64,000 nucleotides of DNA. Origin: an uncultured Cohaesibacter sp. (lineage in GTDB: Bacteria > Pseudomonadota > Alphaproteobacteria > Rhizobiales > Cohaesibacteraceae). The position numbers and the translations under genes were made by a program. The notes under the pieces were generated by a model that searched no databases, was not told the origin of the DNA, and was given only the letters and a program-made list of their open reading frames with translations. Position 1 is the first letter of the stretch. Every line of letters begins with the position of its first letter. Positions 35,420 to 52,221 of the stretch are shown piece by piece. The stretch is taken from positions 4,337,001-4,401,000 of the forward strand of contig NZ_OY761553.1 in NCBI RefSeq assembly GCF_963664735.1. Reading direction: 5' to 3'.

Positions 35420-35792
35420 GGTGCAACAAACTACCGACGAACAAATGCCCGGCGATGAGTCCTTTCAGAGCCCGGAAATGCTGGACGTTCAACGCAAGAT
35501 CCGCATGATGGTTGTCTCTTCGATCCTCATCATGGGGCTTGGTATCTTTTCCATTCTTGGTGTTATTATCTACAAGAGCGTAGCCAATAATGAAAGTGCC
35601 GGAAATGGTCAAGCGGTTACAACATCTATTGGCAACAAGCTCAAGGCCGGAGAAACCATTCGTTCGATGATTGTCGAGAATGGCACGATCTACCTTCTGG
35701 TAGATGGTAAGGACATGACGTCATTGATGATGGTGGATAAGAAATCCGGTTCTGTGAGCCGACGGATCGAGTTTATTCCACAGGGGGAATGA
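35418..35792 (+). CDS. Small single-span membrane protein (DUF6476-like)
   Basis: 124-residue protein with an N-terminal cytosolic segment (MVQQTTDEQMPGDESFQSPE), one transmembrane helix (31-53, MVVSSILIMGLGIFSILGVI) and a short beta-rich periplasmic domain (SMIVENGTIYLLVDGKDMTS). It resembles the DUF6476 family found beside rluD/rpoH in alphaproteobacteria, but this is from memory. The chosen ATG (35418) overlaps the rluD-like ATG on the other strand. The downstream ATG at codon 21 is an alternative. It lies 76 bp before tRNA-Glu. Function unknown. Confidence 0.7.
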   Translation: MVQQTTDEQMPGDESFQSPEMLDVQRKIRMMVVSSILIMGLGIFSILGVIIYKSVANNESAGNGQAVTTSIGNKLKAGETIRSMIVENGTIYLLVDGKDMTSLMMVDKKSGSVSRRIEFIPQGE

Positions 35793-35868
35793 ATTTTCAC
35801 AGTTTCGTCAAAATCGTCTCTTGCGCTTTGATCTAAAGCTCCCTATAAAGCGCCTCACCGATTGATGA

Positions 35869-35943
35869 GCGCCCTTCGTCTAGCGGTTAGGACGCCGCCC
35901 TTTCACGGCGGTAACACGGGTTCGAGTCCCGTAGGGCGTACCA
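35869..35943 (+). tRNA. tRNA-Glu (anticodon TTC)
   Basis: Cloverleaf with acceptor stem GCGCCCT/AGGGCGT, D arm, anticodon stem CCGCC/GGCGG around CTTTCAC (anticodon TTC), T arm ACGGGTTCGAGTCCCGT and an encoded CCA. Its 3' end is the integration site of the downstream mobile element. Confidence 0.95.
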
Positions 35944-35992
35944 CTTTCGACAAAAAGCCCTTGCAGCTCAGGTAGTTGCGAGGGCTTTTGTC
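35926..35992 (+). repeat. attL: direct repeat of tRNA-Glu 3' end plus terminator
   Basis: 67-bp segment starting in the T arm of tRNA-Glu and running through a terminator hairpin (AAAAGCCCTTGCA / TGCGAGGGCTTTT). It is repeated at 48615-48680 with one extra base (C) in the TTTCGAC stretch here and one T/C difference. Such a pair marks site-specific integration by the adjacent tyrosine integrase. Confidence 0.93.
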
Positions 35993-36016
35993 CAACCAGG
36001 GTCCCTAGGTTGGACA

Positions 36017-37036
36017 TCATTTCAGCCTCGCCATAGCATTGTCTGCCATCAGTTTCCTGTTCGCTGCCCTTACATATTTGCGGGCTTCTCCCGGGTTCGA
36101 ATGGCCCAGGAAAGTCATGATTTCGTACTCGGTGCCGCCTGCTTCCGCCAACTTTGTTGCTCCGGCTTTGCGCAACCCATGAGCCCGACCGGGCACGCCG
36201 GCTTCCTTGCATATCTCACCAAACCAATTGCCGAACGATTCAGTTGTGTAGCATACGCCTGCTGTTTTCGTTTGGGAGATGAAGGTCTTCTGATCGCTTG
36301 GAATGTTGATTAGAAACGCTTCGAGTGTGGCATGAAGCGGAAGGTCCACTAATTCGCCTGTTTTGCCCCGATTATAGCAGATCCTGTTGTCGTAAATGCT
36401 GTGCCAGCCCATCCGGTTGACGTCCTGTCGGGCAGCACCAGTATAAAGAATAAGATGCAAGACGATTGCTGGCAAAGAGCCCTCACCATGATGGGCCAGG
36501 AATTGAGAAATTTCTGCGTCGGTCCATGTATGGTAGCCATCTGCATTCATTTTGAAAGGTTTGACGCCTTGGGTGGGATCCGACATCGCATAGCCAAAAT
36601 CATTGATGGCATAGCGGCATAGCCGCCCGATGAGCTTTTTGAGTTTGTTGGCCGCCGCAGGAGTGTCACGCTTCGCCTCCATCAGTGCCTCAACGTGCTT
36701 TTTCTTGAGGCCAGTAATGCTGCGGTGCCCATGATCTTTCCGAAAGCGCTCCATCTCCAGACTGAGATTTCGACGATAAACATCCCCAATATCGCGGAAG
36801 GTTTTGGTTCTCATATACTGAGTGATGAGCCAGTCGAAGGTGCCTGGCTTGGCAGTGGCTTTGGGGATCTCTAATGGTTTGTCTAGTTTTGCAGCCTGAT
36901 AGGAAGCCTCGAACTCCTTCGAACCATATGTTCCTGGGATATAACACGAGGTGCACCCCTTGAGTCTGAAGCGCCATCGGATCTTGCCGTGGCGGTCCGT
37001 GACTCTGGTGACGCCGGGATAAGGATTACGTTTCAT
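36017..37036 (-). CDS. Site-specific tyrosine recombinase (integrase)
   Basis: Integrase that inserts and excises the element at tRNA-Glu. The 339-residue protein has an N-terminal SAM-like core-binding domain (about 65-145) and a C-terminal catalytic domain with Arg203 (TGAARQDVNRM), His286 and Arg289 (AHGLRKAGATKL), His312 (LGHSNPGEA) and the nucleophile Tyr321 (KYVRAAN). All five key residues are present, so it should be active. The N-terminus (VTDRHGKIRWRFRLKG) is typical of alphaproteobacterial phage-type integrases. It overlaps a small upstream gene by four bases and points at the tRNA. Confidence 0.95.
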   Translation of the reverse strand: MKRNPYPGVTRVTDRHGKIRWRFRLKGCTSCYIPGTYGSKEFEASYQAAKLDKPLEIPKATAKPGTFDWLITQYMRTKTFRDIGDVYRRNLSLEMERFRKDHGHRSITGLKKKHVEALMEAKRDTPAAANKLKKLIGRLCRYAINDFGYAMSDPTQGVKPFKMNADGYHTWTDAEISQFLAHHGEGSLPAIVLHLILYTGAARQDVNRMGWHSIYDNRICYNRGKTGELVDLPLHATLEAFLINIPSDQKTFISQTKTAGVCYTTESFGNWFGEICKEAGVPGRAHGLRKAGATKLAEAGGTEYEIMTFLGHSNPGEARKYVRAANRKLMADNAMARLK

Positions 37037-37218
37037 TTTTCCAGAATGTTGTCCCAGTCGTTTGCGTCTCTCAGTCCCGGTTGATCAGGGTCTTTGATCT
37101 GCAGAGTGATCTCGCCGAAGACGGTGATAGAGATTGCCGCAATGGCGACACCTGCAGATTGCGCGCCTCGGATGGCCCGTTTTATGTCTGCCTGCTTAAA
37201 TGTCGCTGCGGTTTTCAT
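37033..37218 (-). CDS. Small integrase-coupled protein
   Basis: 61-residue protein starting MKTAATFKQADIKRAIRGAQ, with a perfect AGGAG site six bases before the ATG and an ATGA overlap with the integrase gene. Such short proteins with a KQADIKRAIRGA-like helix are often seen next to integrases in Rhizobiales elements. It may be a regulator or recombination directionality factor, but this is inferred only from position and size. Confidence 0.75.
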   Translation of the reverse strand: MKTAATFKQADIKRAIRGAQSAGVAIAAISITVFGEITLQIKDPDQPGLRDANDWDNILEK

Positions 37219-37703
37219 GACGGCTCCTGTCTGCTTTCTCGGCGAATTCCATCGCTTTACCGCCCGGTTGAATGCCAACCGACGGCTCTTTGCGTTTGCG
37301 TGAACTGAAAGGGAAGTAGAAAAGCTGAGAGCTGGACCCAAACCAGAATGCGTCTATTTCGCGAGAAAAACGCTCTCAAGGCCGTGATCTGTGCCGAAAT
37401 GCTCTTTGATCACCTCGGTTTGCTGATATAATCGAGGTACACAGAGATCTTGGCAGTCCTGATGTGCAGTATTTAGGCTGCTGTGATCGCTGGCGACAGG
37501 CGCAATATGTGCGGTTTTGCATAGGGCAAAAATTTCACAAACCCAAATGAAATTGACAATAAAGTTATCTAACTGATTTCATGAGGGTTTATTCTCGGTT
37601 TCTGCCGTTTTTATCGCTTCTATCAGCTTTCCCGCCGACGCTGTCTCATTGGCCTCGCCATCGCGTCATGGATGGCGAGGTTGTTCGGTGCGTTTTACTT
37701 GAT
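37219..37703. other. Gene-free stretch with inverted repeats
   Basis: Upstream of the integrase pair. Contains a perfect 10-bp inverted repeat CCTCGCCATC / GATGGCGAGG (37653-37662 and 37671-37680) just past the end of the next gene, which may be its terminator despite lacking a T run. Promoter signals for the integrase pair are expected here but I cannot name them. Confidence 0.5.
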
Positions 37704-38108
37704 TTACATCTCTCTGAACGATTGTGCCCGTCGCTTCTCAGCGTGAATGATGTCCAGAAATCGGTTGGCAAAATACTGAGCTTCTAGCAGATCCGCGCGG
37801 ACACTGGCGTAGGATGAAGCCAAAGGATCGGCCTCGTCGAGGTTGGGCAGTGCCTCCAATAAATCGTCGACGATCTCGTCAAATTGTGGATCAAGGACAC
37901 AGCGATTGCTGACAGCATCGATCAGGGCATGTAATGGCCTGATGTCGTCGAAAATCTCGCCGACTGCAATATCGGGCAAAGAGGATAACGCCTGTCTAGC
38001 CGCGCAGATTGCATCGGCTCCAATATCGAGGATGCGGCTGGCATCGGTCGAGCGCTTATCTACAAGAAGCGAAATATTGTGGCGATAGGTTTCAGGTATA
38101 AGGGGCAT
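37704..38108 (-). CDS. Element protein of unknown function (134 residues)
   Basis: I do not recognise this protein. It is predicted to be mostly alpha-helical and acidic (for example PQFDEIVDDLLEALPNLDEA), with no membrane segment or signal peptide. The ATG at 38108 has AAGGAT upstream; the longer frame has no support. It lies 86 bp downstream of another unknown element gene in the same direction, and the two probably form an operon. A two-gene module of this size next to an integrase could be regulatory, anti-restriction or toxin-antitoxin, but nothing in the sequence decides it. Confidence 0.65.
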   Translation of the reverse strand: MPLIPETYRHNISLLVDKRSTDASRILDIGADAICAARQALSSLPDIAVGEIFDDIRPLHALIDAVSNRCVLDPQFDEIVDDLLEALPNLDEADPLASSYASVRADLLEAQYFANRFLDIIHAEKRRAQSFREM

Positions 38109-38194
38109 ATAGTCATCCTTTTCAAAATGAATGGGTTGGTGATTTGTCCGGCCGACACCGTGGCTGGTCGGACAAATCTCAGACCACACTGTGG

Positions 38195-38761
38195 CTACTG
38201 CTGGGGATCGGGTTTTGAGATGGCAATCGGCGCAGGGATAATCATTCCGGACATTTGGCGGCCAGATCTCTTGGCAAGCAGGGCTTGTCGTTTGAGCATA
38301 TCGGCTCGTCCTTCTGCGCGCTCAACGTTGGTGGCATGGATAAGAGCTCTAAGGCGTTCCAACTGAACGAGCTCGTCACCAACCAACCGACCAAGGACTG
38401 GTGTTCCACCCTTGTTGAGTGCAAAGCCTTCATGGTTGACAGAGACAATCACAAGGCCACGCAGATTGTAGACTGTCGGCTGCGTGAGACTTGCAGCACC
38501 AATGGCGGCAGAATGTTCGACGCGGATTTGGGGTCCGTGGTTAAAAGTTGTCCCGATGGCATGTCCCCGTGCGAGGGTCAGATAACGGGTGCCGACATAG
38601 ATTGCCTCGTCAACGATAAGACATGGCAATGGCTCATTTGCGGGCTGTCGATCTTTGTCGTAATGGTATCCGGGCATAGCGAAAGCAACAATGTCGCCAC
38701 AGCTGACAGTGTCTTGCCAGTTGCTGGCGTGCTTCGTGGATGGAATATTTTCGCTGGTCAT
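38195..38761 (-). CDS. Element protein of unknown function (188 residues)
   Basis: Starts MTSENIPSTKHASNW with a GGAG seven bases before the ATG; the open frame upstream lacks a site. The middle (residues 20-62: CGDIVAFAMPG then PLPCLIVDEA and GTRYLTLARGHA) has the look of a small beta-barrel like the PemK/MazF fold (GDIV near the N-terminus, then a CLIV strand), but the match is weak and no catalytic residues can be assigned. The C-terminal half is helical (ERLRALIHATNVERAEGRAD). It is co-oriented with the downstream 134-residue protein. Confidence 0.65.
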   Translation of the reverse strand: MTSENIPSTKHASNWQDTVSCGDIVAFAMPGYHYDKDRQPANEPLPCLIVDEAIYVGTRYLTLARGHAIGTTFNHGPQIRVEHSAAIGAASLTQPTVYNLRGLVIVSVNHEGFALNKGGTPVLGRLVGDELVQLERLRALIHATNVERAEGRADMLKRQALLAKRSGRQMSGMIIPAPIAISKPDPQQ

Positions 38762-38893
38762 CAATATCTCCGACCTTGGTTGAAGGGATTTTGACACCTG
38801 CCTTTCCTGGTTTCTCTTTCTGGCGAACCGGATCGGGCGCGGCGTCACCAGACCCGCTGCGCACAATCCGGTCGCTATCTGTCAGAGGTTTTT

Positions 38894-38928
38894 GATCTCA
38901 TGCTGATTGGTGGGATCAGCATGAGATC
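38894..38928. repeat. 14-bp perfect inverted repeat
   Basis: GATCTCATGCTGAT (38894-38907) and ATCAGCATGAGATC (38915-38928) pair perfectly around a 7-base loop. No T run follows, so an operator or oriT-associated dyad is as likely as a terminator. Confidence 0.7.
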
Positions 38929-39268
38929 AGGGAGCTTGCAGTTTAAGGGAAAGAGCCTCGAGAAAACCGCGGCCATGAGGTTGTCTCGAGTCCGGCTGAA
39001 GGCCGCCAAGGGGATCCAAGGTGGGCATGGCAATCGCTCCCTTGGCCGGAGTTGGTCTGGCAGAGAGGATCGTCTACCAGTCGCCAGACAGGCCCGTCGG
39101 AGACGAGTGGGAGATCCAAGAGGATGGGCGCGATAGCCTCCTCTGGTCCGGCTGATGGCCCCGGTCGGGTTTGGGTAGGCGGCGCGCTACCCATGCGGCG
39201 ATATCATCGTCGCTGGGTGCAGGGGTTTCCCATGCCGCACTCTGCGTAAGAGCCCTCGGAGAGTCGAC

Positions 39269-39304
39269 ACGTTTTGATCCGCGAAAGCGGAGAAATCAAA
39301 ACGT
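39269..39304. repeat. Nested inverted repeat upstream of the relaxase (candidate oriT)
   Basis: Outer arms ACGTTTTGAT (39269-39278) and ATCAAAACGT (39295-39304) are perfect. Inside, CCGC GAAA GCGG forms a tetraloop hairpin. It lies 147 bp before the relaxase start. Inverted repeats next to a nick site are typical of oriT, but no nic sequence is identified. Confidence 0.6.
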
Positions 39305-39451
39305 ATAGTCGGACCCTACTACTCTTGAACCACCCTTAATTTTCCTCTGAAAATGAGAGGCTTCTGGGGTCGTTTGCTTTTATTTCCGGATCAATAAAGT
39401 GCGCCCTATTTGCTTCACAGGTCATCACATCAGACATGTGGAGTAACGCAA

Positions 39452-41182
39452 TTGCAAGGGTATCAATACGGTCGCGTCGAGTCATATAGCCGCAAAGGCG
39501 GCCAACAAAAAAAGCGTGCGAATGGAGACAGAGCCTGGACCGTCGATGAAGTTATCGCCGAGGCAGAGCGCAAGCCTGGATCATGTAGTCATGTGGAAGA
39601 GCCAGATCCAGCCCCATTGATTATACCGGGCTCTTGTAAAAATTTTGATGAGCTACGCCAAGCTCACAATGATGCCTGCAAAGTCAAACAGCAGGTGCCA
39701 TATACAATTCCAAAGACTGGAAAAAAGTCCCTACGCACCAAAGCCCTACGAGTCGACAAACACACGCTTTATTCATCTGTAATTTCTCTTCCAATCCTGA
39801 GTGCTGATGCATGGGCAATGCCCGACCTGATGGACGAATGCATGGATTTGTTTCATCAGGTCGTCCGCTTCGAAACGGACCGCCTCGAAGAGGCCGGTGG
39901 TCAATTTGCGATGGCAGTTGTGCATCGAGACGAAGCGCATATGCATATCCATGTTTATGGCGTTGATCCTGTGCGTGGAGAGATCACCTGGCTTCATCCA
40001 GGAAAAGCTGCCGTTGATAATATCCGTCGAGGCGCTGGCTGGAAAAAAGACAATGTGGCCGAACAGGATCGAGCCTATTGTGAGGCTATGCGACAGTGGC
40101 AAGATGATATCTATACTTCAGTGTTCAGGGGTGCCGGCCTGATGCGATATGGCCCCAAGCGATTTCGCCTGCCACGAGCTGAATATCTTCAGCAAATGGC
40201 TGCTCATGAGCAGCTTGCGGTGACGAGAAGAGATCTGCCGGAAGCTAGAAAAACAATTGACGATGCACATAGCATGCAGGAAAGCATCGAGGCAAAACGG
40301 CAGGAGTTGGAAAGGGAGAAGCTGGAATTTGAAGAGTATGTGACTTCCAAGGAATGCAAGCTCCAGATTGCCGAAGAGGACCTGTTTGAACGTCAAAACA
40401 AGGTATATTTCGAACAGCGGCAAAAACAGGCGGAGGGTGATCAGATCATTGCCAAGGCAAAAGAAGCAAAACAGGAGGCAGATGCAATCCGGGCCGAGGC
40501 GTTACGCCAAAAAGAACTGAATGAGCAGTATATCGAGAGATACGACGATGCTCTTGAAGCAGGCTTGGCTGCTGTCGATGATGGAGTGATTTCCTATCAA
40601 CCGTCGAGTGGAACAGGCCAGCAAGACAAGCTGAGTTTTGGCCCATCTGCACCCAAGGATGATGAGAAGAGAGCGATTTTAAAAGCCAAATGGCAACCTG
40701 CTTTCAAGGCAATCAAGAAATATGCGCGGAGAATCTGGAGCTCAGAAGCCGCTCAGTGTGAACGCCAATTCAAAGCGGATCCTTCACTGGTCGATGTACA
40801 GGTGACATATAACCCTGATGCAGCGCCTCAGTCTGACGATATTCTGAAAATGGACGTCAAGGTCAGTCTTGACAAGATCAAGGGCCTGTCAAAGCCAATG
40901 CAGCGGATTCTCGGCGGCATCGCGAATGTCATTGCTACGCAGGTTGGCAACGCCGCAATCAAGTTGGTGCGATCAAAACTACGGGATGAATTCGACGCCC
41001 TTAAGGACTATCGTGAGCAGCACCGAAAGCAATATGGCACCGTTGATCCAAATGCAGAAGCCAAAATGTCATTTCAGGAACAGGGCCTAGAAAACATGAT
41101 GGCCAAGGCGCCAGATCCGCGCAATGCAGAGCGACGGGAAAGACAGGACCTAAGGGGCAAAGGTGACAAGATGGATCGGTAG
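39452..41182 (+). CDS. MobV-like relaxase / mobilization protein
   Basis: Likely DNA-nicking protein that starts conjugative mobilisation of the element. The product is 576 residues from a TTG start (39452), which has a GTGGAG site eight bases upstream; a longer TTG frame from 39410 is less likely. The histidine-rich metal motif HRDEAHMHIHVYG (His158 to His167) resembles the HxDE...HxH motif of Mob/Pre relaxases. Phrases such as GSCSHVEEPDPAPLI recall a conserved alphaproteobacterial mobilization family. A long coiled coil spans about 255-395, and the C-terminus is charged. Catalytic tyrosine or His nucleophile cannot be fixed without alignment. Confidence 0.78.
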   Translation: MQGYQYGRVESYSRKGGQQKKRANGDRAWTVDEVIAEAERKPGSCSHVEEPDPAPLIIPGSCKNFDELRQAHNDACKVKQQVPYTIPKTGKKSLRTKALRVDKHTLYSSVISLPILSADAWAMPDLMDECMDLFHQVVRFETDRLEEAGGQFAMAVVHRDEAHMHIHVYGVDPVRGEITWLHPGKAAVDNIRRGAGWKKDNVAEQDRAYCEAMRQWQDDIYTSVFRGAGLMRYGPKRFRLPRAEYLQQMAAHEQLAVTRRDLPEARKTIDDAHSMQESIEAKRQELEREKLEFEEYVTSKECKLQIAEEDLFERQNKVYFEQRQKQAEGDQIIAKAKEAKQEADAIRAEALRQKELNEQYIERYDDALEAGLAAVDDGVISYQPSSGTGQQDKLSFGPSAPKDDEKRAILKAKWQPAFKAIKKYARRIWSSEAAQCERQFKADPSLVDVQVTYNPDAAPQSDDILKMDVKVSLDKIKGLSKPMQRILGGIANVIATQVGNAAIKLVRSKLRDEFDALKDYREQHRKQYGTVDPNAEAKMSFQEQGLENMMAKAPDPRNAERRERQDLRGKGDKMDR

Positions 41183-41207
41183 CCCGGTATCACCAATATC
41201 GTCGATG

Positions 41208-42266
41208 TCAGTCTTTCCTGGTATTGCAGAGCAATGTTATGCAGAGGGCAGATAGCTCGGCCAAGATTCCGATATAGAGTGGAACCATGAGATCGGGCGC
41301 AAATGGATCATTTCGAAACTGTTGCAGGACTTTCGCGATCCGCTCAACCACTGTTTCGTCTGATGACGGTAAATCCTTGTGGCGACTGTCCGCCTTTCTT
41401 GCTGCTTCAATGGCCTCCGCTGCCATTGCCTCTGCTTGATTATATTGCCGTTCATATTCTGCGGCCTTTGGCCCGCATCTATCGCGCCGACATTCCGTCT
41501 CCCATTCATCATGGTAAAGAGCTGCAGCCCTCTTTTGCTGGCTATAGGTGATAATATATCCTTCAATGATGGCCGCCTGCTTCTCTCTCATATTCACTTC
41601 GTCCGTCGCTTGCTGCAGTGGCACGGATAAGAGCGTTGTCGTCGAAAGAATGGATATCGGGGTCGCGACGGTGATGTATAGAGCCAAGAGGCTGGCCAGG
41701 GACCATCGGTGGTTTCGGACGCATTGCAGCGCGCCACCAATCGCTGTTGATCGGCAAAAGTCCAAAATTATCATAAGAACCATAATCGTATAACTTGTTA
41801 CAGGATCGCTCCCTCCAATCTCGCGGCCCAATCGAGCGTTGATGACCATCAAGGCGACCCAGATCATTGTGCAAATGATCTGCAAATAACTTGTTCGCCA
41901 TATTGTCTTTGTTGGTGGCCGCGTTTCCGAGGAGGCCAAGGTGCTGGGGGAAACGATTGTTTCAGGCGACGCAGTTGGTATCGGTGAATTCTTTGAGGGC
42001 TGCTCCCACAAATTGGACTGCTTGTTGTGGCGTATCAAGTCTTGTTCTTTGGCTTTCTGCATTACGCCCCGCGCCATATTGCAATCGACTGCAGCGTCCA
42101 GTCCGGCGCCTTCAAGAGCGTCGCTGAATGCTCGCTTTGTAAAGGCTTCAGGCAGTTGGGCCAATGCGGCTTCGACTTGGTGCAGATAAATCGGTGTGCC
42201 AGCGAAGGTGCCAAAGAGATCATCTGGTTCTTGTCCGGTGGTCGGGTAAGATGTGCCATTGTTCAT
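41208..42266 (-). CDS. Four-span membrane protein with cytosolic N-terminal domain
   Basis: 352-residue protein of unknown function, convergent with the relaxase gene (25 bp apart). An N-terminal domain (about 25-90, ALAQLPEAFTKRAFSDALEG) is compact and possibly a winged helix. Four membrane spans are predicted (about 125-143, 158-180, 189-215, 326-347). A long helical hydrophilic segment lies between spans 3 and 4 (about 220-320). The ATG follows AGGAG. It could be an accessory mobilization, exclusion or signalling protein. No family is recognised. Confidence 0.7.
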   Translation of the reverse strand: MNNGTSYPTTGQEPDDLFGTFAGTPIYLHQVEAALAQLPEAFTKRAFSDALEGAGLDAAVDCNMARGVMQKAKEQDLIRHNKQSNLWEQPSKNSPIPTASPETIVSPSTLASSETRPPTKTIWRTSYLQIICTMIWVALMVINARLGREIGGSDPVTSYTIMVLMIILDFCRSTAIGGALQCVRNHRWSLASLLALYITVATPISILSTTTLLSVPLQQATDEVNMREKQAAIIEGYIITYSQQKRAAALYHDEWETECRRDRCGPKAAEYERQYNQAEAMAAEAIEAARKADSRHKDLPSSDETVVERIAKVLQQFRNDPFAPDLMVPLYIGILAELSALCITLLCNTRKD

Positions 42267-42710
42267 TCTATTCTCCTAATCAAGACATCAGTTGTTTGAC
42301 CGGAAGGGCGAACGTCCTTCCGAAAAGGAAATAGAAAGAATTCCCGCGATCAAAAAAAAATTATGCAGATTACTGCTGGAAGGTGGCTTTGCAGGTGGTG
42401 TTTGGCCTCAGTTCGTGACAGTTGTCCGTGCATCAAAAGGTGATAGTGACGGCAAGAAGCGCACCTGATCAATGACGCGTTGGAACCAAAAGCCGCGACA
42501 AGCATCACGTTGGTGCTGATGGTTCGATGCGGGTGTCTGAAGGCATTGATAAAGCCCGACATGACAGCTGGATCAAACGGATCGTTCGTCACAGACAAGG
42601 TCTAGGCTTTGACAACTGCTGGTGATACGCAATTCAGGCTGGATGGACAGGAGGGATGGGTTGATTGCCAGTAAATGACCGAAATGCCGCTATCGTGTTC
42701 TGCGTCATGC

Positions 42711-42752
42711 TGTCATGACAACCGTCAGGACTGTCATGACAATCATCAGAAC
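42711..42752. repeat. Tandem 21-bp repeats with TGTCATGACA palindrome
   Basis: Two direct copies begin TGTCATGACAA (42711 and 42732), each 21 bp, with the palindrome TGTCATGACA perfect in both. The remaining ten bases are similar (CCGTCAGGAC and TCATCAGAAC). The layout suggests cooperative binding of a regulator or initiator on one helical face. Confidence 0.75.
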
Positions 42753-42965
42753 ACCCCGCCGACCATCATGCCTTGCGAATGTTTGGACTAGTGGCTCTTA
42801 TGATGGCCATGCTGATGTAGATGCGCAATTGGTTGGCTGCATGCTTTGTGGTCAGGAAATGTCTGACGACGCTGTTGACGATCAGGCTCTCATCACATTT
42901 GTCACAAAGACGGTCTGCCGTCGCATGGCAATCGGGGCATCCGTTGCGCTCCTGTCTTACCTGCC

Positions 42966-42995
42966 ATCATGACAAGTAACCTGTTCGTCATGACG
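42966..42995. repeat. Second TCATGA palindrome pair, 21-bp spacing
   Basis: ATCATGAC (TCATGA at 42967) and the perfect palindrome CGTCATGACG (TCATGA at 42988) are again separated by exactly 21 bp, matching the pair at 42711-42741. Confidence 0.65.
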
Positions 42996-43413
42996 TAACG
43001 AAATGTGCCTGACATCCATCAGAAGCATCCTGACAGTATGATGACGAATGTGATGCCACGAACAAAGCAAGGTCTTGGGTGGGCGGAAAGTGGCCATTTC
43101 TCGCAGTTACGGGATATCTGTTGCTATCGACAGAAGCGGACATTGGGAGGAGCTTCATACCCATCAGATGGGTTGAGACGAGGTTACCCAAAAGCGGAGC
43201 TGCTGTGGCACGAAGAATACATTGTTTTAAGACGCAAATAGTCTTTTTCAAATGCCTAGTCCGTGTTGGCAGAAGGCTTTTCATATCAGTTGGTTTCTGA
43301 TTCAAAGGCACTTCTGCCAGGGCATCCATGATAACTCTGAACTTTCGTGGTTACCGAACAACCATGGGACATTGTTGACCAATCCCCCACGCTTGCGCAC
43401 ACCGGCGATCCTG

Positions 43414-44289
43414 TCAGTTATCGCAGGTGGGAAGGGCGGTTGGCCAGACCTTTTCCCAGCCACTTTCATGGCTTGCCCCTGGCACCACGGTTACGGTGGC
43501 ACAGCGCGAGGGGCCGAGAGCGGCAACAAATCCTTCGGCAATGAAGGGTGGCACGCGCCTGTCCGCACTGCCGGTCAGATGGCGCTGGGGAAGACCAGTC
43601 AGGCGCGCTGCCACATCAACCGGGTTCAGCGAGGCGGGCATGGGCGAGACGCGATTGAAACGGTTGACCGCCTCACTGTCGAGATTGCCCGCCACGGTGC
43701 GCAGACTGAGAATATCGTTGCGTCGGGCAGCCACCAGAACCGCGACGGCAGCTCCGCCGGAATAGCCCACAAGATGGATGCCGCCCGCTGTCTTGAGACG
43801 ATCGAGCGCGGCAGACATTGCTGCAATCACCTCCTCAGAAAAGCGCCGATCGGTCCAGTAGGTGGTGTTGCAGGCCGCCCCCCGGCTATATTGGCAAGGG
43901 CGCGCCAGATAGGCCACATTGGCGGAAGGATCGAGCTCTGCAAGGCGCAAGCCCATGAACCGCTGCGGGGTCGGGTCTGACGACGGCTCGGTCCGTGATC
44001 GCCACGCCGCGCCGTCCCCCTCGATATAGACGGTGATTGGCTGGCCCGGTTCCTTGATGCGCACATAGGCAGTAAGGTCAAAGCCTCCGGCGGGAATTTC
44101 CCTTTGCACCATGCCCACGGCAGCAGCGGTGGATTGGGCCGAAGTCGAATGCTCCAGATTCGAGCTGCAGGCCGGGAGCAGCGCGAGAACTGCAACCAGC
44201 ATTGGCTTAAGACTTGATATACGGAATATGGGAATGACATTAGAGGCTATGTGTCGAACAGATCCTCTATCTACACTCATATGAACCAT
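43414..44289 (-). CDS. Lipoprotein alpha/beta-hydrolase
   Basis: Predicted lipid-anchored hydrolase. Lipobox LPAC occurs in the N-terminal hydrophobic stretch MLVAVLALLPACSS. The body has an alpha/beta-hydrolase nucleophile elbow GYSGG, a late SADRRVP with a candidate Asp and ASHESGW with a candidate His, so a Ser-Asp-His triad is plausible. The start is uncertain. ATGs at 44289, 44280 and 44202 are all in frame, and the GGAGG site best serves those near 44289. Base composition is GC-richer than nearby element genes. Substrate unknown. Confidence 0.75.
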   Translation of the reverse strand: MVHMSVDRGSVRHIASNVIPIFRISSLKPMLVAVLALLPACSSNLEHSTSAQSTAAAVGMVQREIPAGGFDLTAYVRIKEPGQPITVYIEGDGAAWRSRTEPSSDPTPQRFMGLRLAELDPSANVAYLARPCQYSRGAACNTTYWTDRRFSEEVIAAMSAALDRLKTAGGIHLVGYSGGAAVAVLVAARRNDILSLRTVAGNLDSEAVNRFNRVSPMPASLNPVDVAARLTGLPQRHLTGSADRRVPPFIAEGFVAALGPSRCATVTVVPGASHESGWEKVWPTALPTCDN

Positions 44290-44672
44290 CCGCCCTCCAG
44301 GGAACCCCATTTTCAACATTCGCAGTCTCGGCGCCCCAAAAGGCGGTTACTCTTGTATTCCGGAACAACAGCGGAACGATAACTCTTTGGCTCCAGATTT
44401 GTCACGGGCGGCAAGTCCCCTCCCGTCGGAAACAAAGGAGCAGGCACAGTCTTCAGGAAGCCCTATCCGCGATAGCATAAGTTACACCATGCAGTCCCCA
44501 CACACTTGTGGCATTTTGTTGCGACTTAAGGGGGGGACGTCATAATGCTGAGTTGTGCGGTTTAGGTCAGTTGTATTAATGTTACGTCGAATCAAACTCG
44601 GTTTCGCAGAACGAAAAGTTTAGAAATTTTAATATATGACGGTCGGGAAAGAAGTCTGTCATTAAGAGGAAA
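44290..44672. other. Divergent intergenic region before the autotransporter
   Basis: No gene is visible. The last 150 bp are AT-rich and should contain the autotransporter promoter. There is also a T/A-rich stretch near 44625-44660. Confidence 0.45.
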
Positions 44673-46946
44673 ATGCAAGAAATGGTTGGTTGTAAAGTGC
44701 GCTCAAAACCACTCGGCGCGATCGTCGCCCTTGGTACAGCAGTATTGGGTTTTGTTTCACCGTCGCATGCGGGCTCCTCTGACCTGACGATATCAACCAC
44801 TTCCAGCGACATCCAGGTATCTTCGGGTGAATCCTTAAACTCTATCACCGTTACCGAAACAGGTGTGGTTTCTGGGGCGAACGATGGCGTATACAACAAC
44901 GGAAACATTGGTACGATTACCAATCTCAATAAGTTGGGAGCTGGTTATTACGCTATTCGCAGCTCAGGCACTATCGGGACAATCAGCAATGCTGGCACCT
45001 TAAGTTCAGATCGGGCCTATGCCATATATAACACGGGTACGATCAACGAGTTGATCAACACTGGATCCATAACCGCTGATTGGGGTTATACCATCTTAAA
45101 TAATGGTACCATTACCAACTTCAATAACTCGGGTACAATTACGGCCGGGTCTACATCCACCAACGTTTTGAATAACACCGGTTCTATTGATTCCTTCACC
45201 AACAGCGGCACCATAAAAGGCGATATTACGTCCGGCAGTAGCCTGACCTTTATCGGCGGCTCTGGCAGCACATTGGGGGTTCTGACTGGCTATACCCCCG
45301 ACGCGACAACAGCCATCGGAGCGATCTCGATATCGAGTGGCGATCTTGTCTTCGCTTCAGGCAACATGCTGCTCAATGATAATGTTACCATGGGCTCGGG
45401 TTCTGTGATCAATCAGGCCGCAGCCCTGCAAATCAACAACAGCGTCTCGGTGATTGGCGATTTTGTGCAAGAAAGTACCGGCACGCTGCTGATCGGCGTT
45501 GCCGACGGTGCCGTTGCAACGGGCAATGTCGCCACGGACAGCGGCTATGGCCGGCTGGTCGTCACCGACACGGCAACATTCAACAGCGGGTCCATTGTCT
45601 ATCTGACCAGCCTCAACAGCTACGCATTTGCGGAAGGACAGCGATATGTGGTGGCGCAGGCAGATGCAATCGGCACCAATTACAACGCCTCCAGCCTGAT
45701 ATATGGCGCAGACGGCTATAGCGGCGCGATTACGGGTCTGGCTCAGGTCGACAGCAACAACAGCAACCTGACCGATCTGGTGATCACGCTCGGCAATTCC
45801 GGCCCCACCGGCCGCGCAACCACCCAAGATGCCATCGCCTCGATGAATGGCCTGTTCAATTATGGCGGTACGGACAGCGGGCTGTTGAACGTGTTCAATG
45901 CCAGCGCGGCTCTGGGCACATCTCCGGAAGCCAATAAGGCCGGAGCACAATTGAGCCCGGCAGCGGTCACCTCGGCCTCGACAAAGGCCTCGTCCTCCAC
46001 CACCACCGCGGTGCTCAATGTCATCGGCCAGCGCGCCGACAAGATCCGGGCTCTGGGCGCCGGGAACAGTGGCGTGGCAACAGGTGAAAGCATGACCGAC
46101 GCTGCCGTTTGGGGGCAGGGCTTTGGTGGCATGGCCAGCCAGCAGGAACGCGACGCCATCTCCGGTTATGATGCCCGCTTTGGTGGCTTTCTGATCGGTG
46201 CCGATGCGGCCTTCGACGACAGCTGGCGCGTTGGTGGGTTGGGCAGCTATGCCAGAACCTTCGTGGATGGCAACGACAGCAATGAAGGCAGCACGGTCGG
46301 CATCAACTCCTATGGCCTGTTCGGCTATGCCAGCTATGATGGCAATCCATGGTTCCTTGACATCTCCACCGGCGTTGCGCTGCATACCTATGACACCCAC
46401 CGCGAATTTGATTTCGGCGGCTTCCGCAATCAGGCCGAAGGGTCCTTCAACGGTTGGCAATATGCTGTTTCTGGTCAGGCAGGCTATCCGTTCCAGCTGA
46501 ATGATCAGGGCACGACGCTGACCCCGATTGCCGGTCTGAGCTACAGCCTGCTCTGGCAGGATGGCTATACCGAAACGGGTGGCGGTGGCGCAGCCCTCAC
46601 CGTGGACGATGCGACCTCCACTTCGCTCAAGAGCAATCTGGGTGTACGGCTGGATCACACTGTCGCTCTGCCCAAGGGAGAGTTGTCGCCCTTCGTTCAG
46701 GTGGGGTGGAGCCATGAATTCCATGACGGTGCCCAGCAGTCGGCCGCTGGCTTTGCAGCCGATGGCACCGGCGCAACCGACTTCGTGACCACCGGTGCCC
46801 GTCCCATTGCCGACAGCCTGCAGCTGGCAATCGGCGCAACGCTGAAGACCAGCGACAATCTCAGCCTGTCTCTCAAATATGCCGGAGAAATGGCGAACAG
46901 CTACCAAAGCCACACCGGCAATCTGCAACTGCGCCTGAAGTTCTGA
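44673..46946 (+). CDS. Autotransporter with short repeat passenger
   Basis: Type V secreted surface protein of 757 residues. Signal peptide about 1-33 (ending SHA). A passenger follows, with about five repeats of 23 residues between residues 72 and 184 (AIRSSGTIGTISNAGTLSSD and AIYNTGTINELINTGSITAD are adjacent units). This is typical of a beta-solenoid. A linker leads to the autotransporter beta-barrel in the last 270 residues (GYDARFGGFLIGADAAFD to the end), finishing in Phe (LQLRLKF). The first 700 bp are AT-rich and the rest GC-rich, suggesting a fused origin. The ATG has GAGG close by; a second ATG nine bases downstream is possible. Confidence 0.85.
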   Translation: MQEMVGCKVRSKPLGAIVALGTAVLGFVSPSHAGSSDLTISTTSSDIQVSSGESLNSITVTETGVVSGANDGVYNNGNIGTITNLNKLGAGYYAIRSSGTIGTISNAGTLSSDRAYAIYNTGTINELINTGSITADWGYTILNNGTITNFNNSGTITAGSTSTNVLNNTGSIDSFTNSGTIKGDITSGSSLTFIGGSGSTLGVLTGYTPDATTAIGAISISSGDLVFASGNMLLNDNVTMGSGSVINQAAALQINNSVSVIGDFVQESTGTLLIGVADGAVATGNVATDSGYGRLVVTDTATFNSGSIVYLTSLNSYAFAEGQRYVVAQADAIGTNYNASSLIYGADGYSGAITGLAQVDSNNSNLTDLVITLGNSGPTGRATTQDAIASMNGLFNYGGTDSGLLNVFNASAALGTSPEANKAGAQLSPAAVTSASTKASSSTTTAVLNVIGQRADKIRALGAGNSGVATGESMTDAAVWGQGFGGMASQQERDAISGYDARFGGFLIGADAAFDDSWRVGGLGSYARTFVDGNDSNEGSTVGINSYGLFGYASYDGNPWFLDISTGVALHTYDTHREFDFGGFRNQAEGSFNGWQYAVSGQAGYPFQLNDQGTTLTPIAGLSYSLLWQDGYTETGGGGAALTVDDATSTSLKSNLGVRLDHTVALPKGELSPFVQVGWSHEFHDGAQQSAAGFAADGTGATDFVTTGARPIADSLQLAIGATLKTSDNLSLSLKYAGEMANSYQSHTGNLQLRLKF

Positions 46947-46975
46947 GGTCGATTTCCGAAAAGGCCAATTACTCT

Positions 46976-47016
46976 CTCAGCAGATATACTCCCTTGGGGA
47001 GAGCATATCTGCTGAG
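46976..47016 (+). terminator. Stem-loop after autotransporter
   Basis: Perfect 12-bp arms CTCAGCAGATAT and ATATCTGCTGAG, with a further CTCCC/GGGAG inside. It lies 30 bp after the stop. No long T run, so termination may be weak or the element may protect the mRNA. Confidence 0.6.
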
Positions 47017-47147
47017 GAGTTTGCGCATTACAGTCGTTCTTTCTTAACAACATCATGGAGACGGACGCCGCCGGTTTCCGTCACCCTTAGGTTCCGTCTG
47101 TCAATCACGTCAGCCGTCTGGCTAACTTCACGTCCTTTAAGTTTTCA

Positions 47148-47300
47148 TCAGCACATGAAGCGCAGATGATTGAGGATCTTCCATCGCCCGTCATTGTGCC
47201 AGCTATAGAAATAGCCTCCCACGGTCGGCAAGGGTGGGAATTCCTTCTGCATCATACGCTGGTGGCAACCACATCTTGCTAGATACGCGGATAGTTTGCA
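47148..47300 (-). pseudogene. IS5-family transposase fragment
   Basis: Minus-strand translation reads LARCGCHQRMMQKEFPPLPT followed by VGGYFYSWHNDGRWKILNHL. This matches the N-terminal domain of IS5-type transposases (the LRTGCQWRMLPKEFPPxxTV..YFYxWRxDG..xxINH pattern). The DDE catalytic part is absent and the reading frame is broken upstream, so only a relic remains. The upstream limit is approximate. Confidence 0.65.
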
Positions 47301-47561
47301 CGACAGGAATACGGAAATCGCTTCGTGAAAAAGATTGCTGGTGAGTGACCGGTAAGGGCCGCGATTGCAAATCATGCCCAAGATGAGCGCTTTCGTGTAA
47401 GAACGCCGAGCCCATGTCCGGTTCGAGCCCAAGTTGGCTACTTTTTTATTAGTTGCGGACGTCAGCTCTTTTCTTCTGTTGGTGCATGAGTTCATACTCA
47501 TGCGTTGTGCCATATATACGATAGAAAATTTGGAAATCCCCACTTGACGGAAGACATGCTG

Positions 47562-48389
47562 ATGAGTTCAAACGATAGTAAAAAGGCAGAATTCGCAAGT
47601 TGCGCCAGCTACAAGAACTTCGCTAAACGCGTCCTACGTTCCAGACGGTATGTGTTGGATGATGAAGGGCGTTGTTTTTTGGACGCTGTGTTAGCCACTT
47701 TGTCTAAAGATGAACGCGATAGGGAGCTTCCAAAAGGACAGATCTTCTATAGAGCTCAACGAGGAGTGGAATGGCTCGAACTGGAGGATGAAAACGGCAA
47801 TTCGATAGGGCCAGAAGTTTTTGGGTATGACGGTATGCGCATGAAACCGCTTTCTGACCGCGCGCGAGAAGGGCGCCTAAACCCTTCCGGAATCCCAGTT
47901 CTCTATGTAGCGAACACGATAGAAACGGCCATTTCTGAGGTCAGGCCATGGGTTGGCGCTGAAATATCGGTCGCTAAATGCCGATTAGTTCGCCCATTGA
48001 AGACACTGAATCTTTCCATTGGACATGGGAAGCATTCCGGTGCCGATTTCAGGCACTTTATGGGCGGTCCAGAACCAACAACTGATGACGTAAATGCGGC
48101 GGTTTGGATCGATATTGATAATGCCTTTTCTAGACCTATTACGGCGTCAGATGATCAGGCTGACTATGCACCCACCCAAATACTCGCGGAGTTGTTCCAA
48201 AGCGTTGGATATGAAGCAATCGTATATAAGAGCCAGTTCGGTGATAATGAGCAAATAACGGGATACAACATTGCAATTTTTGATCTTGATGCAATTGAAA
48301 TTGTCAGCTGCGAACCGCATCAGGTCGAATCCATCAAGATCAATGCGAGGCAGATTGGAAATCCGTGGTTTAGTTCGAAAAACCCATGA
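47562..48389 (+). CDS. RES-domain protein
   Basis: RES domains occur in toxins that modify or degrade NAD+ and are usually paired with an Xre-type antitoxin. The 275-residue protein (ATG at 47562; an alternative lies at 47556) has the RES landmarks FYRAQRG (Arg64), LYVANTIETAISEVRPW (Glu126) and YEAIVYKSQFGD (Ser224). The N-terminal extension of about 60 residues is longer than classic RES toxins. No antitoxin-like gene is next to it, only the IS relic upstream and attR downstream. The longer RES class may be an enzyme with another role. Confidence 0.8.
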   Translation: MSSNDSKKAEFASCASYKNFAKRVLRSRRYVLDDEGRCFLDAVLATLSKDERDRELPKGQIFYRAQRGVEWLELEDENGNSIGPEVFGYDGMRMKPLSDRAREGRLNPSGIPVLYVANTIETAISEVRPWVGAEISVAKCRLVRPLKTLNLSIGHGKHSGADFRHFMGGPEPTTDDVNAAVWIDIDNAFSRPITASDDQADYAPTQILAELFQSVGYEAIVYKSQFGDNEQITGYNIAIFDLDAIEIVSCEPHQVESIKINARQIGNPWFSSKNP

Positions 48390-48614
48390 TAGAATCAACG
48401 GACTACCGCAATAGCTACTCTTACAGCGGTCATTGGTGCGAACTGGACGAAGGTCGGTTATGTCCGCACACCCGAAGTTCGCTTGCTGCCAATGCTGCGA
48501 CTCAATGGAAGGTCCGTTACCCCAAACAGTCGATATAAAGGCGATGTGTTACCAAATCTGGGTAACTTCGGCCTACCGGGCGTAATTTATCGTTATATTC
48601 CAGTGCCCATCTTT

Positions 48615-48680
48615 GTCCCGTAGGGCGTACCACTTTGACAAAAAGCCCTTGCAGCTCAGGCAGTTGCGAGGGCTTTTGTC
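48615..48680 (+). repeat. attR: second copy of the tRNA-Glu 3' end plus terminator
   Basis: 66 bp identical to 35926-35992 except one missing base and one substitution. The first 18 bases are the tRNA 3' end including CCA, and the hairpin after it is the tRNA terminator. Only the 3' part of the tRNA is present, so the functional tRNA is at attL. Confidence 0.93.
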
Positions 48681-48801
48681 GTTTCATGGGAAGGCGCGTA
48701 CCGATAGATCTAGGTATCGGTGTATGAAACTTGCGATGTGCTGTTTCTGGTTCAGAGAATCACCAGCCACCTTGGGCTCGTTTCGCAGGAGCTGACGGTA
48801 T

Positions 48802-50745
48802 CTATTTGTCTGTTGACAATGCTGGCAGATGCATTTTTGAGACAAGCCAGCGGGATCCATAAGCGTTGAGATGCCCTGCATTTCGATAAAGCAAGATGCC
48901 GTCTTTTACCATGTTGCAGAACGTGTCGCTGCACATGGCGTCGGTGACCTTGCGTATTTCAACATTTGGCAGTTTTGCCGCTGCTGCTTCGTAAAATGCT
49001 TCTGTCGTGCTGGTGGATGCTTTTTTTGCTGTTCCGCATTGTGTTCCCGGTTTGAGGACTGCCTGTTTGACGCAAGCTGCTCTGAGATTCATGCCCCCTT
49101 GCACAGGCGTTGCAACCAGCAGTCGGATATGTCTTTCATCGAGCCAATTGGCAAAATCTACAAATGCACGAGCAAATCTGTCCCCGGATGCGACAAGATC
49201 ATCAAAGGGTTCGGTGAAATGAAAGTGGTTTGACAGGATAACCAGTTTCAGGTTCGGATTTGCTATGATGCGCTTTTTAAGCTCTTCGTGATAATCCCGG
49301 CACATCTGAACGCGGCGATAGTCGGGGCGATCCATACCCGGCACGCCGGAGCATGTTGAGTTGGTGACCTGACGTACCGAAAGATTTTGCTGTTTGGCCC
49401 AGACTTCCAGACCGGGAACCAGATGGTCAGCGTAGGAACTGCCGATAACAAAGACATCGAAACCATGTTTGGGGTCATAGTGCCCGTTCAGATCACAATA
49501 GTCATTTCTGTTGTTTGCCTTTTGCCAAGAGTCGCAGGCGTCTCGGTAGCTATTCTCGGAATATTCCTGGCGGTAGATTTCCTGCTCCCATGATGGCAGG
49601 CGCCAAGGCATTCCGCGGGTTACCATCAGGCTGCCGCCAAGAAGAGATACCGTGAGCAGGCTCAAGATGCCCGATCCAACCACAAGCCCCTGCCGCTTGA
49701 TGATTATGGCTCCCTTCCAGCGTCTGATGGGCGTTTCAACATAGCGCCAGGAAACGTAAGCAATCAGGAATGTTGCAACAACCAAAAGAGCCCAGACGAG
49801 GGGCGATAGCTCTTCGCCATAGGCAAGGCGGGCAAAGGAAAATAGAGGCCAATGCCACAAATAGACACCGTAAGAGATTAACCCTATCCAGACAAAAGGG
49901 CGGAAGGTAAGAAAACGCGTTGTGATATTTTCTTTCTGGACGCCGAGCCAGATAAGCACGGCCGTGCTCAAGACCAGAGGGATCGTCAGAGGTCCGGGCA
50001 GGTGGTAGTCCTCTGAAAGAGCAAACAGGCTGACAAGGATAATGAGGCCTGCCAGACCTGCAAACAGACTGGCAAAAGGAACCGTCTTGTTTTGTTGTGG
50101 CAACAAAAGGGCTGCCAATGCGCCGGTGCCCAGTTCCCACACGCGGGTTGAAAGAAAATAGAAGCTGTTATCTGATTGCGCCAACGGGCTGAAGAGAAGG
50201 AGACCCAGAGAGATGAGTGTGAGCGCCAAAACACACAGAGAGGCGGCAAGACGACGATGGGCAGGTAGCAGCTTTACGGCAAGCCCCAGCAGCACTGGCC
50301 AGACAAAATAAAACTGCTCTTCAACCGACAGGGACCAGAAATGCAGTAACGGATGCTGATTGGCCGGAGCTGCAAAATAGTCCAGCGTGTTGGCGAAATA
50401 GATGTTGGCGTGAAACAGCGCGGCAGCAATCATGCTTCTGCCGAAAATGACTGCGTCTTCGGGCGACATGACCACGAGTGCCATCAGAAATGACGTGAGC
50501 AACACCAGCGAGGAGGCCGGGATCAACCGGCGAATGCGCTTTTCCCAGAAAAGCAGGAGGTTTATCTTGCCATCACTGCTCGATTGGATCAGGGAGTTTG
50601 TGATGACAAAGCCGGATATGACAAAGAATATATCGACACCCAAATAGCCACCCGGAGCCATTTGAGACGAAATATGAAACAGGACCACTGGCAATATCGC
50701 CATCGCGCGCAGCCCATCAATGAAGCGATAATGAGTAGAGGTCAT
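48802..50745 (-). CDS. OafA/YrhL-type acyltransferase with SGNH domain
   Basis: Integral membrane acyltransferase that typically O-acetylates LPS O-antigen or other surface polysaccharides. The 647-residue protein has an N-terminal acyltransferase-3 domain with about ten membrane spans, beginning FIDGLRAMAILPVVLFHI and PGGYLGVDIFFVISGFVIT (with the conserved histidine in the first). It has a C-terminal SGNH-type domain (about 420 onward, FVIGSSYADHLVPGLE and a late NAGHLNAYGSRWL). It is the first intact gene outside attR. The acceptor glycan is unknown. Confidence 0.9.
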   Translation of the reverse strand: MTSTHYRFIDGLRAMAILPVVLFHISSQMAPGGYLGVDIFFVISGFVITNSLIQSSSDGKINLLLFWEKRIRRLIPASSLVLLTSFLMALVVMSPEDAVIFGRSMIAAALFHANIYFANTLDYFAAPANQHPLLHFWSLSVEEQFYFVWPVLLGLAVKLLPAHRRLAASLCVLALTLISLGLLLFSPLAQSDNSFYFLSTRVWELGTGALAALLLPQQNKTVPFASLFAGLAGLIILVSLFALSEDYHLPGPLTIPLVLSTAVLIWLGVQKENITTRFLTFRPFVWIGLISYGVYLWHWPLFSFARLAYGEELSPLVWALLVVATFLIAYVSWRYVETPIRRWKGAIIIKRQGLVVGSGILSLLTVSLLGGSLMVTRGMPWRLPSWEQEIYRQEYSENSYRDACDSWQKANNRNDYCDLNGHYDPKHGFDVFVIGSSYADHLVPGLEVWAKQQNLSVRQVTNSTCSGVPGMDRPDYRRVQMCRDYHEELKKRIIANPNLKLVILSNHFHFTEPFDDLVASGDRFARAFVDFANWLDERHIRLLVATPVQGGMNLRAACVKQAVLKPGTQCGTAKKASTSTTEAFYEAAAAKLPNVEIRKVTDAMCSDTFCNMVKDGILLYRNAGHLNAYGSRWLVSKMHLPALSTDK

Positions 50746-50856
50746 ATACCCGGACTTATTGCATATACAAGTGTGCCGTTAATGCTCATCTGCGGGTTGT
50801 AGTGTCAAGCGATTTGTTCTGCTTTCTACCATAAGGCGTTCGAGCCTTTTAGGGAT

Positions 50857-52145: not shown

Positions 52146-52221
52146 GCGCCCTTCGTCTAGTGGTCTAGGACGCCGCCCTCTCACGGCGGCAACACGGGTT
52201 CGAACCCCGTAGGGCGTACCA
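52146..52221 (+). tRNA. tRNA-Glu (anticodon CTC)
   Basis: Acceptor GCGCCCT/AGGGCGT, anticodon stem CCGCC/GGCGG around CTCTCAC (anticodon CTC), T arm ACGGGTTCGAACCCCGT and encoded CCA. Close in sequence to tRNA-Glu(TTC) at 35869, which is the integration target. Confidence 0.94.

Follow-up and report, generated by a model that had tools for sequence, protein, structure and literature searches.

When considering the possibility that the DNA behind a tRNA-Glu(TTC) gene of an uncultured Cohaesibacter sp. can pass between cells, one question comes first: does this block of some 12.7 kb belong to the chromosome, or is it an integrative mobilizable element (IME)? The block lies in a stretch of 64,000 nucleotides (contig NZ_OY761553.1, positions 4,337,001 to 4,401,000; hereafter the window, whose numbering is used throughout). 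The first-pass annotation, made from the letters of this DNA, had read the block as an IME, and this reading is supported here by an integrase, a predicted origin of transfer (oriT), a relaxase, the absence of a transfer channel, and an empty site in a related genome. In the terms of the iMOB-type IME as defined in the sections of PMC11389934 drawn on here, the block is integrated in the chromosome and has its own integration module (integrase, att repeats and the empty site in genome G014), has an oriT recognized by sequence and hairpin only, encodes a relaxase of its own, and contains no mating-pair-formation system that we could recognize. It is therefore very probable that the interval of ~12.69 kb is an IME. 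As far as can be judged from sequence, it would be a well-formed one, with a tRNA-Glu target, a divergent MobV-related relaxase, an oriT class of its own, a modular relaxase and a slot for cargo. What carries this conclusion is the att repeat, the empty site, the open integrase frame, the oriT motif with its hairpin, the homology of the relaxase, the lack of matches to channel genes, and the exchange of modules between relatives.

That the block is an insertion follows from the comparison with related genomes, in which, as had been proposed, an empty tRNA-Glu site was looked for. Such a site is present in G014, with both flanks syntenic: tRNA-Glu(TTC) and tRNA-Glu(CTC) are ~270 bp apart there, as compared to 16.2 kb in the window (where ARAGORN places tRNA-Glu(CTC) at 52146-52221), the DNA to the left of tRNA-Glu(TTC) matches the window at 84% over 2.6 kb, and to the right of tRNA-Glu(CTC) six syntenic pieces (74-92%) together cover most of 52.4-63.8 kb. 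In G001, the two genes are ~1.5 kb apart. The spacing in G014 implies that, compared with that genome, the window has gained by insertion both the element and the 3.5 kb past its right repeat, and the empty site excludes a conserved chromosomal block. Relatives sharing the whole block would have spoken for such a block; none of those examined has it. Genome G004, at the same tRNA, matches 35801-43105 at 91% identity and has different DNA beyond, whereas for its left flank (34401-36016) the identity to the window is 83%; a backbone more similar than the flank is the mark of a block moving between species and speaks for movement since the species parted. Of the remainder, 43100-48460, the 18 genus genomes otherwise contain just short fragments.

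The bounds of the block are given by the direct repeat of 66-67 bp, which had been located and described correctly: its two copies (Table 1) are 97% identical over 67 columns and differ by the one indel (a C absent from one copy) and the one substitution (T vs C) already reported. When the window was compared with itself by blastn (E 1e-8, words of 15, low-complexity filter on), this repeat was the only pair apart from the two tRNA-Glu genes, which rules out a chance repeat. The tRNA 3' end accounts for 18-22 bp of it and the remainder is a hairpin, variants of which are found 3' of tRNA-Glu(TTC) in most of the genus sites printed; a terminator scan of the stretch of the left repeat gave no site by its T-run rule. 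Among the ends of the relatives, the portion from the tRNA 3' end is conserved best and the subsequent hairpin varies, which weakens the notion of the 66-bp repeat as a single attachment core. The inverted repeat GTCCAACC/GGTTGGAC next to the left copy, a possible arm-type site for the integrase, has both arms perfect in six of the nine left ends aligned (the window, two in G004, G013, G016, and an Octadecabacter island discussed below), one differing base in G011, one in G012, and three in the scar at site B of G000. At the opposite end, AATTTATCGTTATATTCCAGTGCCCATCTTT, which abuts the att core, is identical in G012 and G006 and has three differences in G013. The second tRNA-Glu(TTC) gene of the same genome (L043:14490-14600) bears the scar of an element left end, in which the right arm GGTTGGAC stands with the apparent last integrase codons and the left arm has three changes; a tblastn search with the integrase found no match there.

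Table 1. Features of the element and its target, in window coordinates.
Feature	Position	Strand	Remarks
tRNA-Glu(TTC)	35869..35943	+	integration target, left intact; ARAGORN, Rfam
attL copy of direct repeat	35926..35992	+	67 bp; tRNA 3' end and terminator-like hairpin
Inverted repeat GTCCAACC/GGTTGGAC	35990..36015		between att and integrase stop
Tyrosine recombinase (integrase), 339 aa	36017..37036	-	Pfam Phage_integrase 2e-8; PHROG integrase 2e-32; catalytic residues
102-aa open reading frame (ORF)	37033..37341	-	overlaps integrase start
Mobilization backbone	37232..43087		common to elements without this integrase and with other cargo
Conserved backbone protein, 161 aa	37704..38189	-	
Conserved backbone protein, 223 aa	38195..38866	-	
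Perfect 15-bp inverted repeat, 7-nt loop	38893..38929		upstream of 223-aa gene; partly lost in some relatives
Predicted oriT	39264..39312	+	TCGAC, 10-bp arm 39269-39278, loop, arm 39295-39304, nic-like ATAGTCGG 39305-39312
MobV-related relaxase, 590 aa	39410..41182	+	head ~aa 1-330 (class N1), tail ~aa 375-590 (class C1)
352-aa protein	41208..42266	-	four hydrophobic stretches
Cargo junction	43071..43086	+	last conserved block GGTCTTGGGTGGGCGG
Alpha/beta-hydrolase-like protein, 301 aa	43414..44319	-	weak Abhydrolase_6, E 0.0027, below cut-off
Autotransporter, 757 aa	44673..46946	+	Pfam Autotransporter 1.8e-65
IS4/5-type transposase remnant	47148..47543	-	DUF4096 7.8e-6, below cut-off
RES-domain protein, 294 aa	47505..48389	+	Pfam RES 3.3e-16
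Right end of element	48462..48614	+	
attR copy of direct repeat	48615..48680	+	66 bp

The integrase had been taken to be intact, and indeed its frame is full length and the catalytic R, K, HxLR, H and Y (assigned by eye) are conserved in relatives, being identical in the six full-length copies of the genus, the window included, as well as in the 43% identical copy from Octadecabacter. Full-length copies at 71% identity or more number six, in five genomes (G000, two in G004, G013, G016, and G011); by sequence, no relative with a solved structure was found. With the integrase as query, 14 of the 18 genus genomes match at E 0.001 or better, and in 13 (G000, G001, G003, G004, G006, G007, G008, G010-G013, G015, and G016; proximity assigned by reading) an integrase or its remnant lies within ~130 bp of tRNA-Glu or its repeat, G008 being represented by an 84-bp match at E 6e-4 and G006 by an internal repeat copy. 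Hence, the earlier remark that no known relative could be named is superseded by relatives both in the genus and in Octadecabacter, outside the order of the host. The island of Octadecabacter sp. B2R22 (L138:5204-17639) resembles the window element in its association with tRNA-Glu(TTC), the adjoining integrase, a relaxase 27% identical, a size of 12.4 kb and closure by a 23-bp direct repeat. It differs in that the other window proteins have no match there, no ATAGTCGG-type oriT motif stands upstream, and the cargo comprises a C5 methylase and an MzaB-like ATPase.

The relaxase was placed by remote homology. Against NCBIfam MobV, it reaches E 0.0055, under the cut-off of that family, and a profile of 28 relaxase heads matched one sequence of solved structure, MobM of pMV158 (PDB 4lvi), at E 1.4e-7. 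Residues E51, R54, H61, R114, H172, D174, E175, H179, H181, R253 and R256 are invariant in the 28 heads, and HRDEAHMHIH at 172-181 corresponds to motif III of MOBV1 (HxDExxPHUH), with M in place of P. Tyr223, which follows this motif, is nearly invariant in the 28 heads and present in 9 of 9 heads of another alignment. By analogy with MobM, which cleaves through a histidine according to the portion of PMC5863519 used here, the likelier nucleophile would be His61, with Tyr223 as the alternative; the near-invariance of Tyr223 weakens the case for His61 as the sole candidate. The relatives found come mostly from Proteobacteria. Matches were obtained to 69 plasmid relatives, and the 25 listed are 28-34% identical over the head; many of those listed are annotated as plasmid recombination or mobilization proteins, the others being hypothetical or not annotated. 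A relative of 369 aa is encoded in Devosia indica (NZ_PYVZ01000015.1), and a scan of genome contigs with the single relaxase sequence found no relative. A relaxase relative in G006 (C1:1990411-1992180) is reported with one in-frame TGA.

Directly upstream of the relaxase gene, the DNA shows the order TCGAC, ACGTTTTGAT, loop, ATCAAAACGT, ATAGTCGG, which we predict to be the oriT; folded as DNA, 39262-39330 has a z of -5.26 against shuffles. The pattern [AG][TA]AGTCGG, searched upstream of relatives of the relaxase, occurs in seven of seven fetched plasmids (two pairs of which are near-duplicates), and five of the seven, all but L085 and L086, have hairpin arms of at least 6 under the rule applied. 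Seventy-eight further relaxase loci (77 from genome contigs and one on a viral contig) were considered, two of which were dropped because of short upstream DNA; in the 76 with at least 250 bp upstream, the pattern is found within 900 bp of the gene at 41 loci, 40 of these having the hairpin too, as compared to a background in the same loci of 131/2666 stretches for the pattern and 17/2666 for pattern and hairpin together. Besides the window element, the combination of hairpin and ATAGTCGG is found across Proteobacteria, both on plasmids and at loci in chromosomes. Of 46 hairpins, 31 have a CCGAC 5' of the left arm that could pair with GTCGG (TCGAC in the window), and 19 have a CTAT downstream that could pair with ATAG (CTAC in the window). 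Conservation extends to the DNA that precedes the oriT (38930-39217), where a small protein may be encoded; a G008 element whose relaxase is distantly related matches 61 bp of this stretch at 84% identity.

How does this element compare with systems already described? Among IMEs, IMESag-rpsI of Streptococcus agalactiae, as presented in the parts of PMC5090054 consulted, likewise has a tyrosine recombinase, no type IV secretion system (T4SS), and an oriT with overlapping inverted repeats directly upstream of a MobV relaxase gene. Its host is a Firmicute, it is named after its target rpsI, in contrast to the tRNA-Glu of the window, and its relaxase is a MOBV1 protein with HxxR and NYD/EL and a predicted nick at GTGCG/T, as against ExxR and ATAGTCGG here; relative to that account, the window relaxase has in addition a long tail domain and a membrane protein as neighbor. 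With pMV158, as described in the same portion of PMC5863519, the element shares an HUH relaxase with R-x-D and HxDExxxHxH, and the alternative pairings noted above (GTCGG/CCGAC or, in some loci, ATAG/CTAT) recall its mutually exclusive hairpins around the nick; the nick sequence of pMV158 is, however, GTGTG/TT, and MobM is so distant that it was found only via the family profile. The third group comprises small mobilizable plasmids of Klebsiella, Aeromonas, Citrobacter, Comamonas, Sulfitobacter and Pseudosulfitobacter, of which the seven fetched (2.8-7.4 kb) combine a relaxase head 26-33% identical with the same oriT motif upstream; unlike the element, they replicate, show no integrase among the annotated features displayed, and have no match to tail C1. 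All seven (L083, L084, L085, L086, L112, L113, and L114), and 51 of the 69 matched records, are typed by MOB-suite as non-mobilizable, so that typing may miss this class; hairpin plus ATAGTCGG offers a simple test for small plasmids of clinical genera typed in this way. Here, an IME with a MobV-related relaxase has been delimited in an alphaproteobacterium, together with its target, its empty site and a predicted oriT.

The absence of T4SS genes from the cargo, as initially claimed, holds for the nine main ORFs, none of which was recognized as such. Searches of the 4.94-Mb single-contig host genome with VirB4 (PF03135) and the two coupling-protein families PF02534 and PF10412 gave no match either (controls were positive in 1, 5 and 7 of 14 genomes), which implies that a helper is needed; VirB4 is found in six of the 18 genus genomes, so that possible helpers exist within the genus. 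Having its own integrase and a conjugation start kit without the transfer channel, the element probably hitch-hikes between cells on the machinery of other elements. We infer excision, nicking and its nucleophile, use of a helper, and docking to proceed as follows. The tyrosine recombinase would recombine the 3' end of tRNA-Glu(TTC) between attL and attR, yielding a circle; the relaxase would open the hairpin oriT directly upstream of its own gene, with a nick at or beside ATAGTCGG, His61 (less likely Tyr223) acting as the nucleophile and the HUH histidines holding the metal. A helper element would then supply the type IV secretion channel by which the single strand, bound to the relaxase, leaves the cell, with docking probably served by the relaxase tail and the adjacent membrane protein. 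The transferred strand would recircularize and integrate in the tRNA-Glu of the recipient.

Comparison of the element with 17 loci by blastn reveals sharp joins at 37232-37337 and 43085-43105. At five loci that lack this integrase (L044, L045, L072, L073, and L074), the shared DNA starts only at the former join, and at L072, the sole one of the five scanned for an integrase, a different integrase is found at the join. At the latter, a block ending in GGTCTTGGGTGGGCGG with two substitutions or fewer is common to six elements (the window, L046, L055, L072, L073, and L053), and past ~43087 each of the six has different DNA. A further point of departure lies within the backbone: L049, L051 and L055 leave the shared block at 39217-39224, directly before the oriT; L055 and L051 have a different relaxase head, and in L055 an oriT-like hairpin of its own precedes TTAGTGAG, the letters of which recur in L049 and L051. 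Head N1 is joined to tail C1 in the window, L044, L046, L072 and L073 and to tail C2 in L045, L074 and L075, whereas head N2 occurs with C1 in L055 and, distantly, in L069, and with C2 in L051. All four head/tail combinations are thus represented. The family of the genus is modular, its integrase, oriT with relaxase head, relaxase tail, and cargo being exchanged separately. Two loci of the same genome, L044:13590-16744 and L045:5870-9024, are 99.7% identical over 3155 bp that comprise backbone and relaxase head and differ in their tails, which indicates recent exchange within one lineage.

The 352-aa gene is found near tail C1 or its distant forms at six of eight loci (not at L044 and L079) and at none of four C2 loci. 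It occurs in seven of 297 sampled genomes of the order, six of which belong to the genus; G004 and G016, which have the gene as well and gave no match in that sample, were presumably not drawn. Its product is proposed to be a docking partner of the relaxase. We tentatively entertain a broader suggestion, namely, that the genus possesses a mix-and-match mobilization platform in which oriT with catalytic relaxase head, relaxase tail, integrase and cargo each move as a cassette, and in which the C1 tail and this membrane protein form a helper-docking pair almost confined to the genus. If so, an element could change its nick target, docking helper, integration site and defense cargo independently. 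The separate exchange of head and tail opens helper specificity to experiment. The first 39 aa of the 102-aa ORF are common to three elements without this integrase (L045, L072, and L073), and this ORF is a candidate for a directionality factor. For the backbone proteins of 161 and 223 aa, no Pfam, NCBIfam, PADLOC or PHROG match was obtained. The stretch 42700-43050, long, apparently non-coding and conserved among elements, contains repeated TCATGACA-like motifs that could be iterons or partition sites.

Several observations weigh against an IME with a MobV-related relaxase. Several integrase copies are remnants, in at least seven relatives, and these, along with the in-frame TGA in the G006 relaxase relative, imply decay in part of the family. 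With no helper seen in its host, the element could be stranded there. In the form given above, the oriT motif is absent from 35 of the 76 related loci, the Octadecabacter island included, and cannot be considered universal for these relaxases. The relaxase, first described as MobV-like, is MobV-related by the profile match to MobM, but two of the motifs given for MOBV1 relaxases in the excerpted PMC5090054 (HxxR, NYD/EL and HxDExxPHUH) are missing. In place of HxxR, which is present in the three class-2/3 heads of the genus that were aligned, 28 of 28 heads have E51xxR54, followed by the invariant His61, and their consensus contains neither an invariant tyrosine nor NYD/EL; with ExxR instead of HxxR, the protein is not filed as MOBV1. 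Pfam Mob_Pre (PF01076) does not match the window relaxase; its cut-off of 25.5 bits is passed, with 29 bits, by a relative that belongs to the same order and is 36% identical locally and 23% overall.

Could the element, then, have been mobile formerly and be fixed now, its integrase and relaxase looking intact while excision does not occur or a helper is lacking? The missing VirB4 and coupling-protein matches in the host, the integrase remnants in the relatives, the insertion sequence (IS) remnant within the cargo, and the differences between the att copies would all fit. We regard this explanation as rather unlikely, given that the integrase and relaxase frames are open and full length, the catalytic and HUH residues as well as the oriT hairpin and nic motif are kept, and the backbones of the window and G004 are more alike than their left flanks, as expected from movement after the species parted. 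An alternative that concerns the bounds is a stack of insertions, the right repeat copy belonging to an earlier occupant of this tRNA and not marking the end of the element of this integrase. Tandem arrays do exist at tRNA-Glu in G006 and G012, a further 3.5 kb without a counterpart in G014 follows the right repeat, and several sites without this integrase have AATCG or AATCC after the tRNA, with the right copy having CTTTGAC like most element ends. Such a stack is nevertheless improbable: the right-end block abuts the core in G012, its last 31 bases are found also in G006 and G013, and no further core copy was found between the two repeats. A tyrosine integrase at a tRNA, a length of 12.7 kb and defense genes in relatives would also suit a phage satellite or prophage remnant. 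Among eight proteins scanned against PHROGs (the autotransporter was not scanned), however, the integrase alone matched, the sole other hit being weak (E 0.009) and to a family of unknown function; by this result, and with a relaxase and a predicted oriT present, this origin was rejected as scarcely credible.

What does the element carry? Compared with the genus, the DNA of 43100-48620 matches just at its right end, in an IS-like stretch at ~47.05-47.44 kb, and in a few scraps. The 301-aa protein is, read by eye, possibly a lipoprotein, and the autotransporter has a 24% protein match in G016. The RES-domain protein has the domain expected of a RES-Xre toxin of the ParT/MbcT type; no antitoxin (Xre) gene was recognized by eye beside it among the ORFs (small ORFs were not scanned), and its score for the ParT subfamily is 13.7 against a cut-off of 110. 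Most of its plasmid relatives listed are annotated as RES family NAD+ phosphorylase, and in the three records inspected out of 244 (60.8%, 46.1% and 38.7% identical) the neighbors are a CBASS-like set, an N6-methylase set, and ATPase/helicase genes. These neighbors suggest that the RES protein is probably an NAD-degrading defense gene; it has no relative of solved structure by sequence, and three cargo proteins of the window have no PADLOC match at E 0.1.

In the relatives, PADLOC was applied to 20 proteins picked for length and interest, so that no rate of defense genes is claimed. L055 in G016, an 18.3-kb tRNA-Glu element closed by a second repeat, carries a short Argonaute, a SIR2 partner and a Tmn-like protein; L072 has a CBASS cyclase, L050 in G012 a PDC-S49 candidate, L057 an N6 methylase, and L044, in the same genome as the window, SngABC, the Shango set. 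Judging from the defense cargo of several relatives, such elements offer anti-phage systems a way to spread. As far as seen, the cargo is of another kind in L045 (RND efflux) and L046 (PIN, ketoacyl synthase), and the other proteins from relatives that were looked at, a part of them perhaps encoded outside elements, are ABC exporters (with mad3-type matches that we read as a general resemblance among ATPases), a TctA transporter, a flotillin, a lysyltransferase and one protein without a family.

Beyond the element, the 3.5 kb that separate the right repeat from tRNA-Glu(CTC) (48681-52145), which have no counterpart in G014, are possibly the remnant of an older insertion. They encode an acyltransferase with an SGNH domain (48802-50745) and contain 1075 bp (50873-51947) that are 99.8% identical to a second site of the same genome (G000:C1 from 3102564 on), where a SorC-type regulator with orthologues in relatives is located; the copy in the window seems to have arisen by recent duplication and to be truncated close to the 3' end of the gene.

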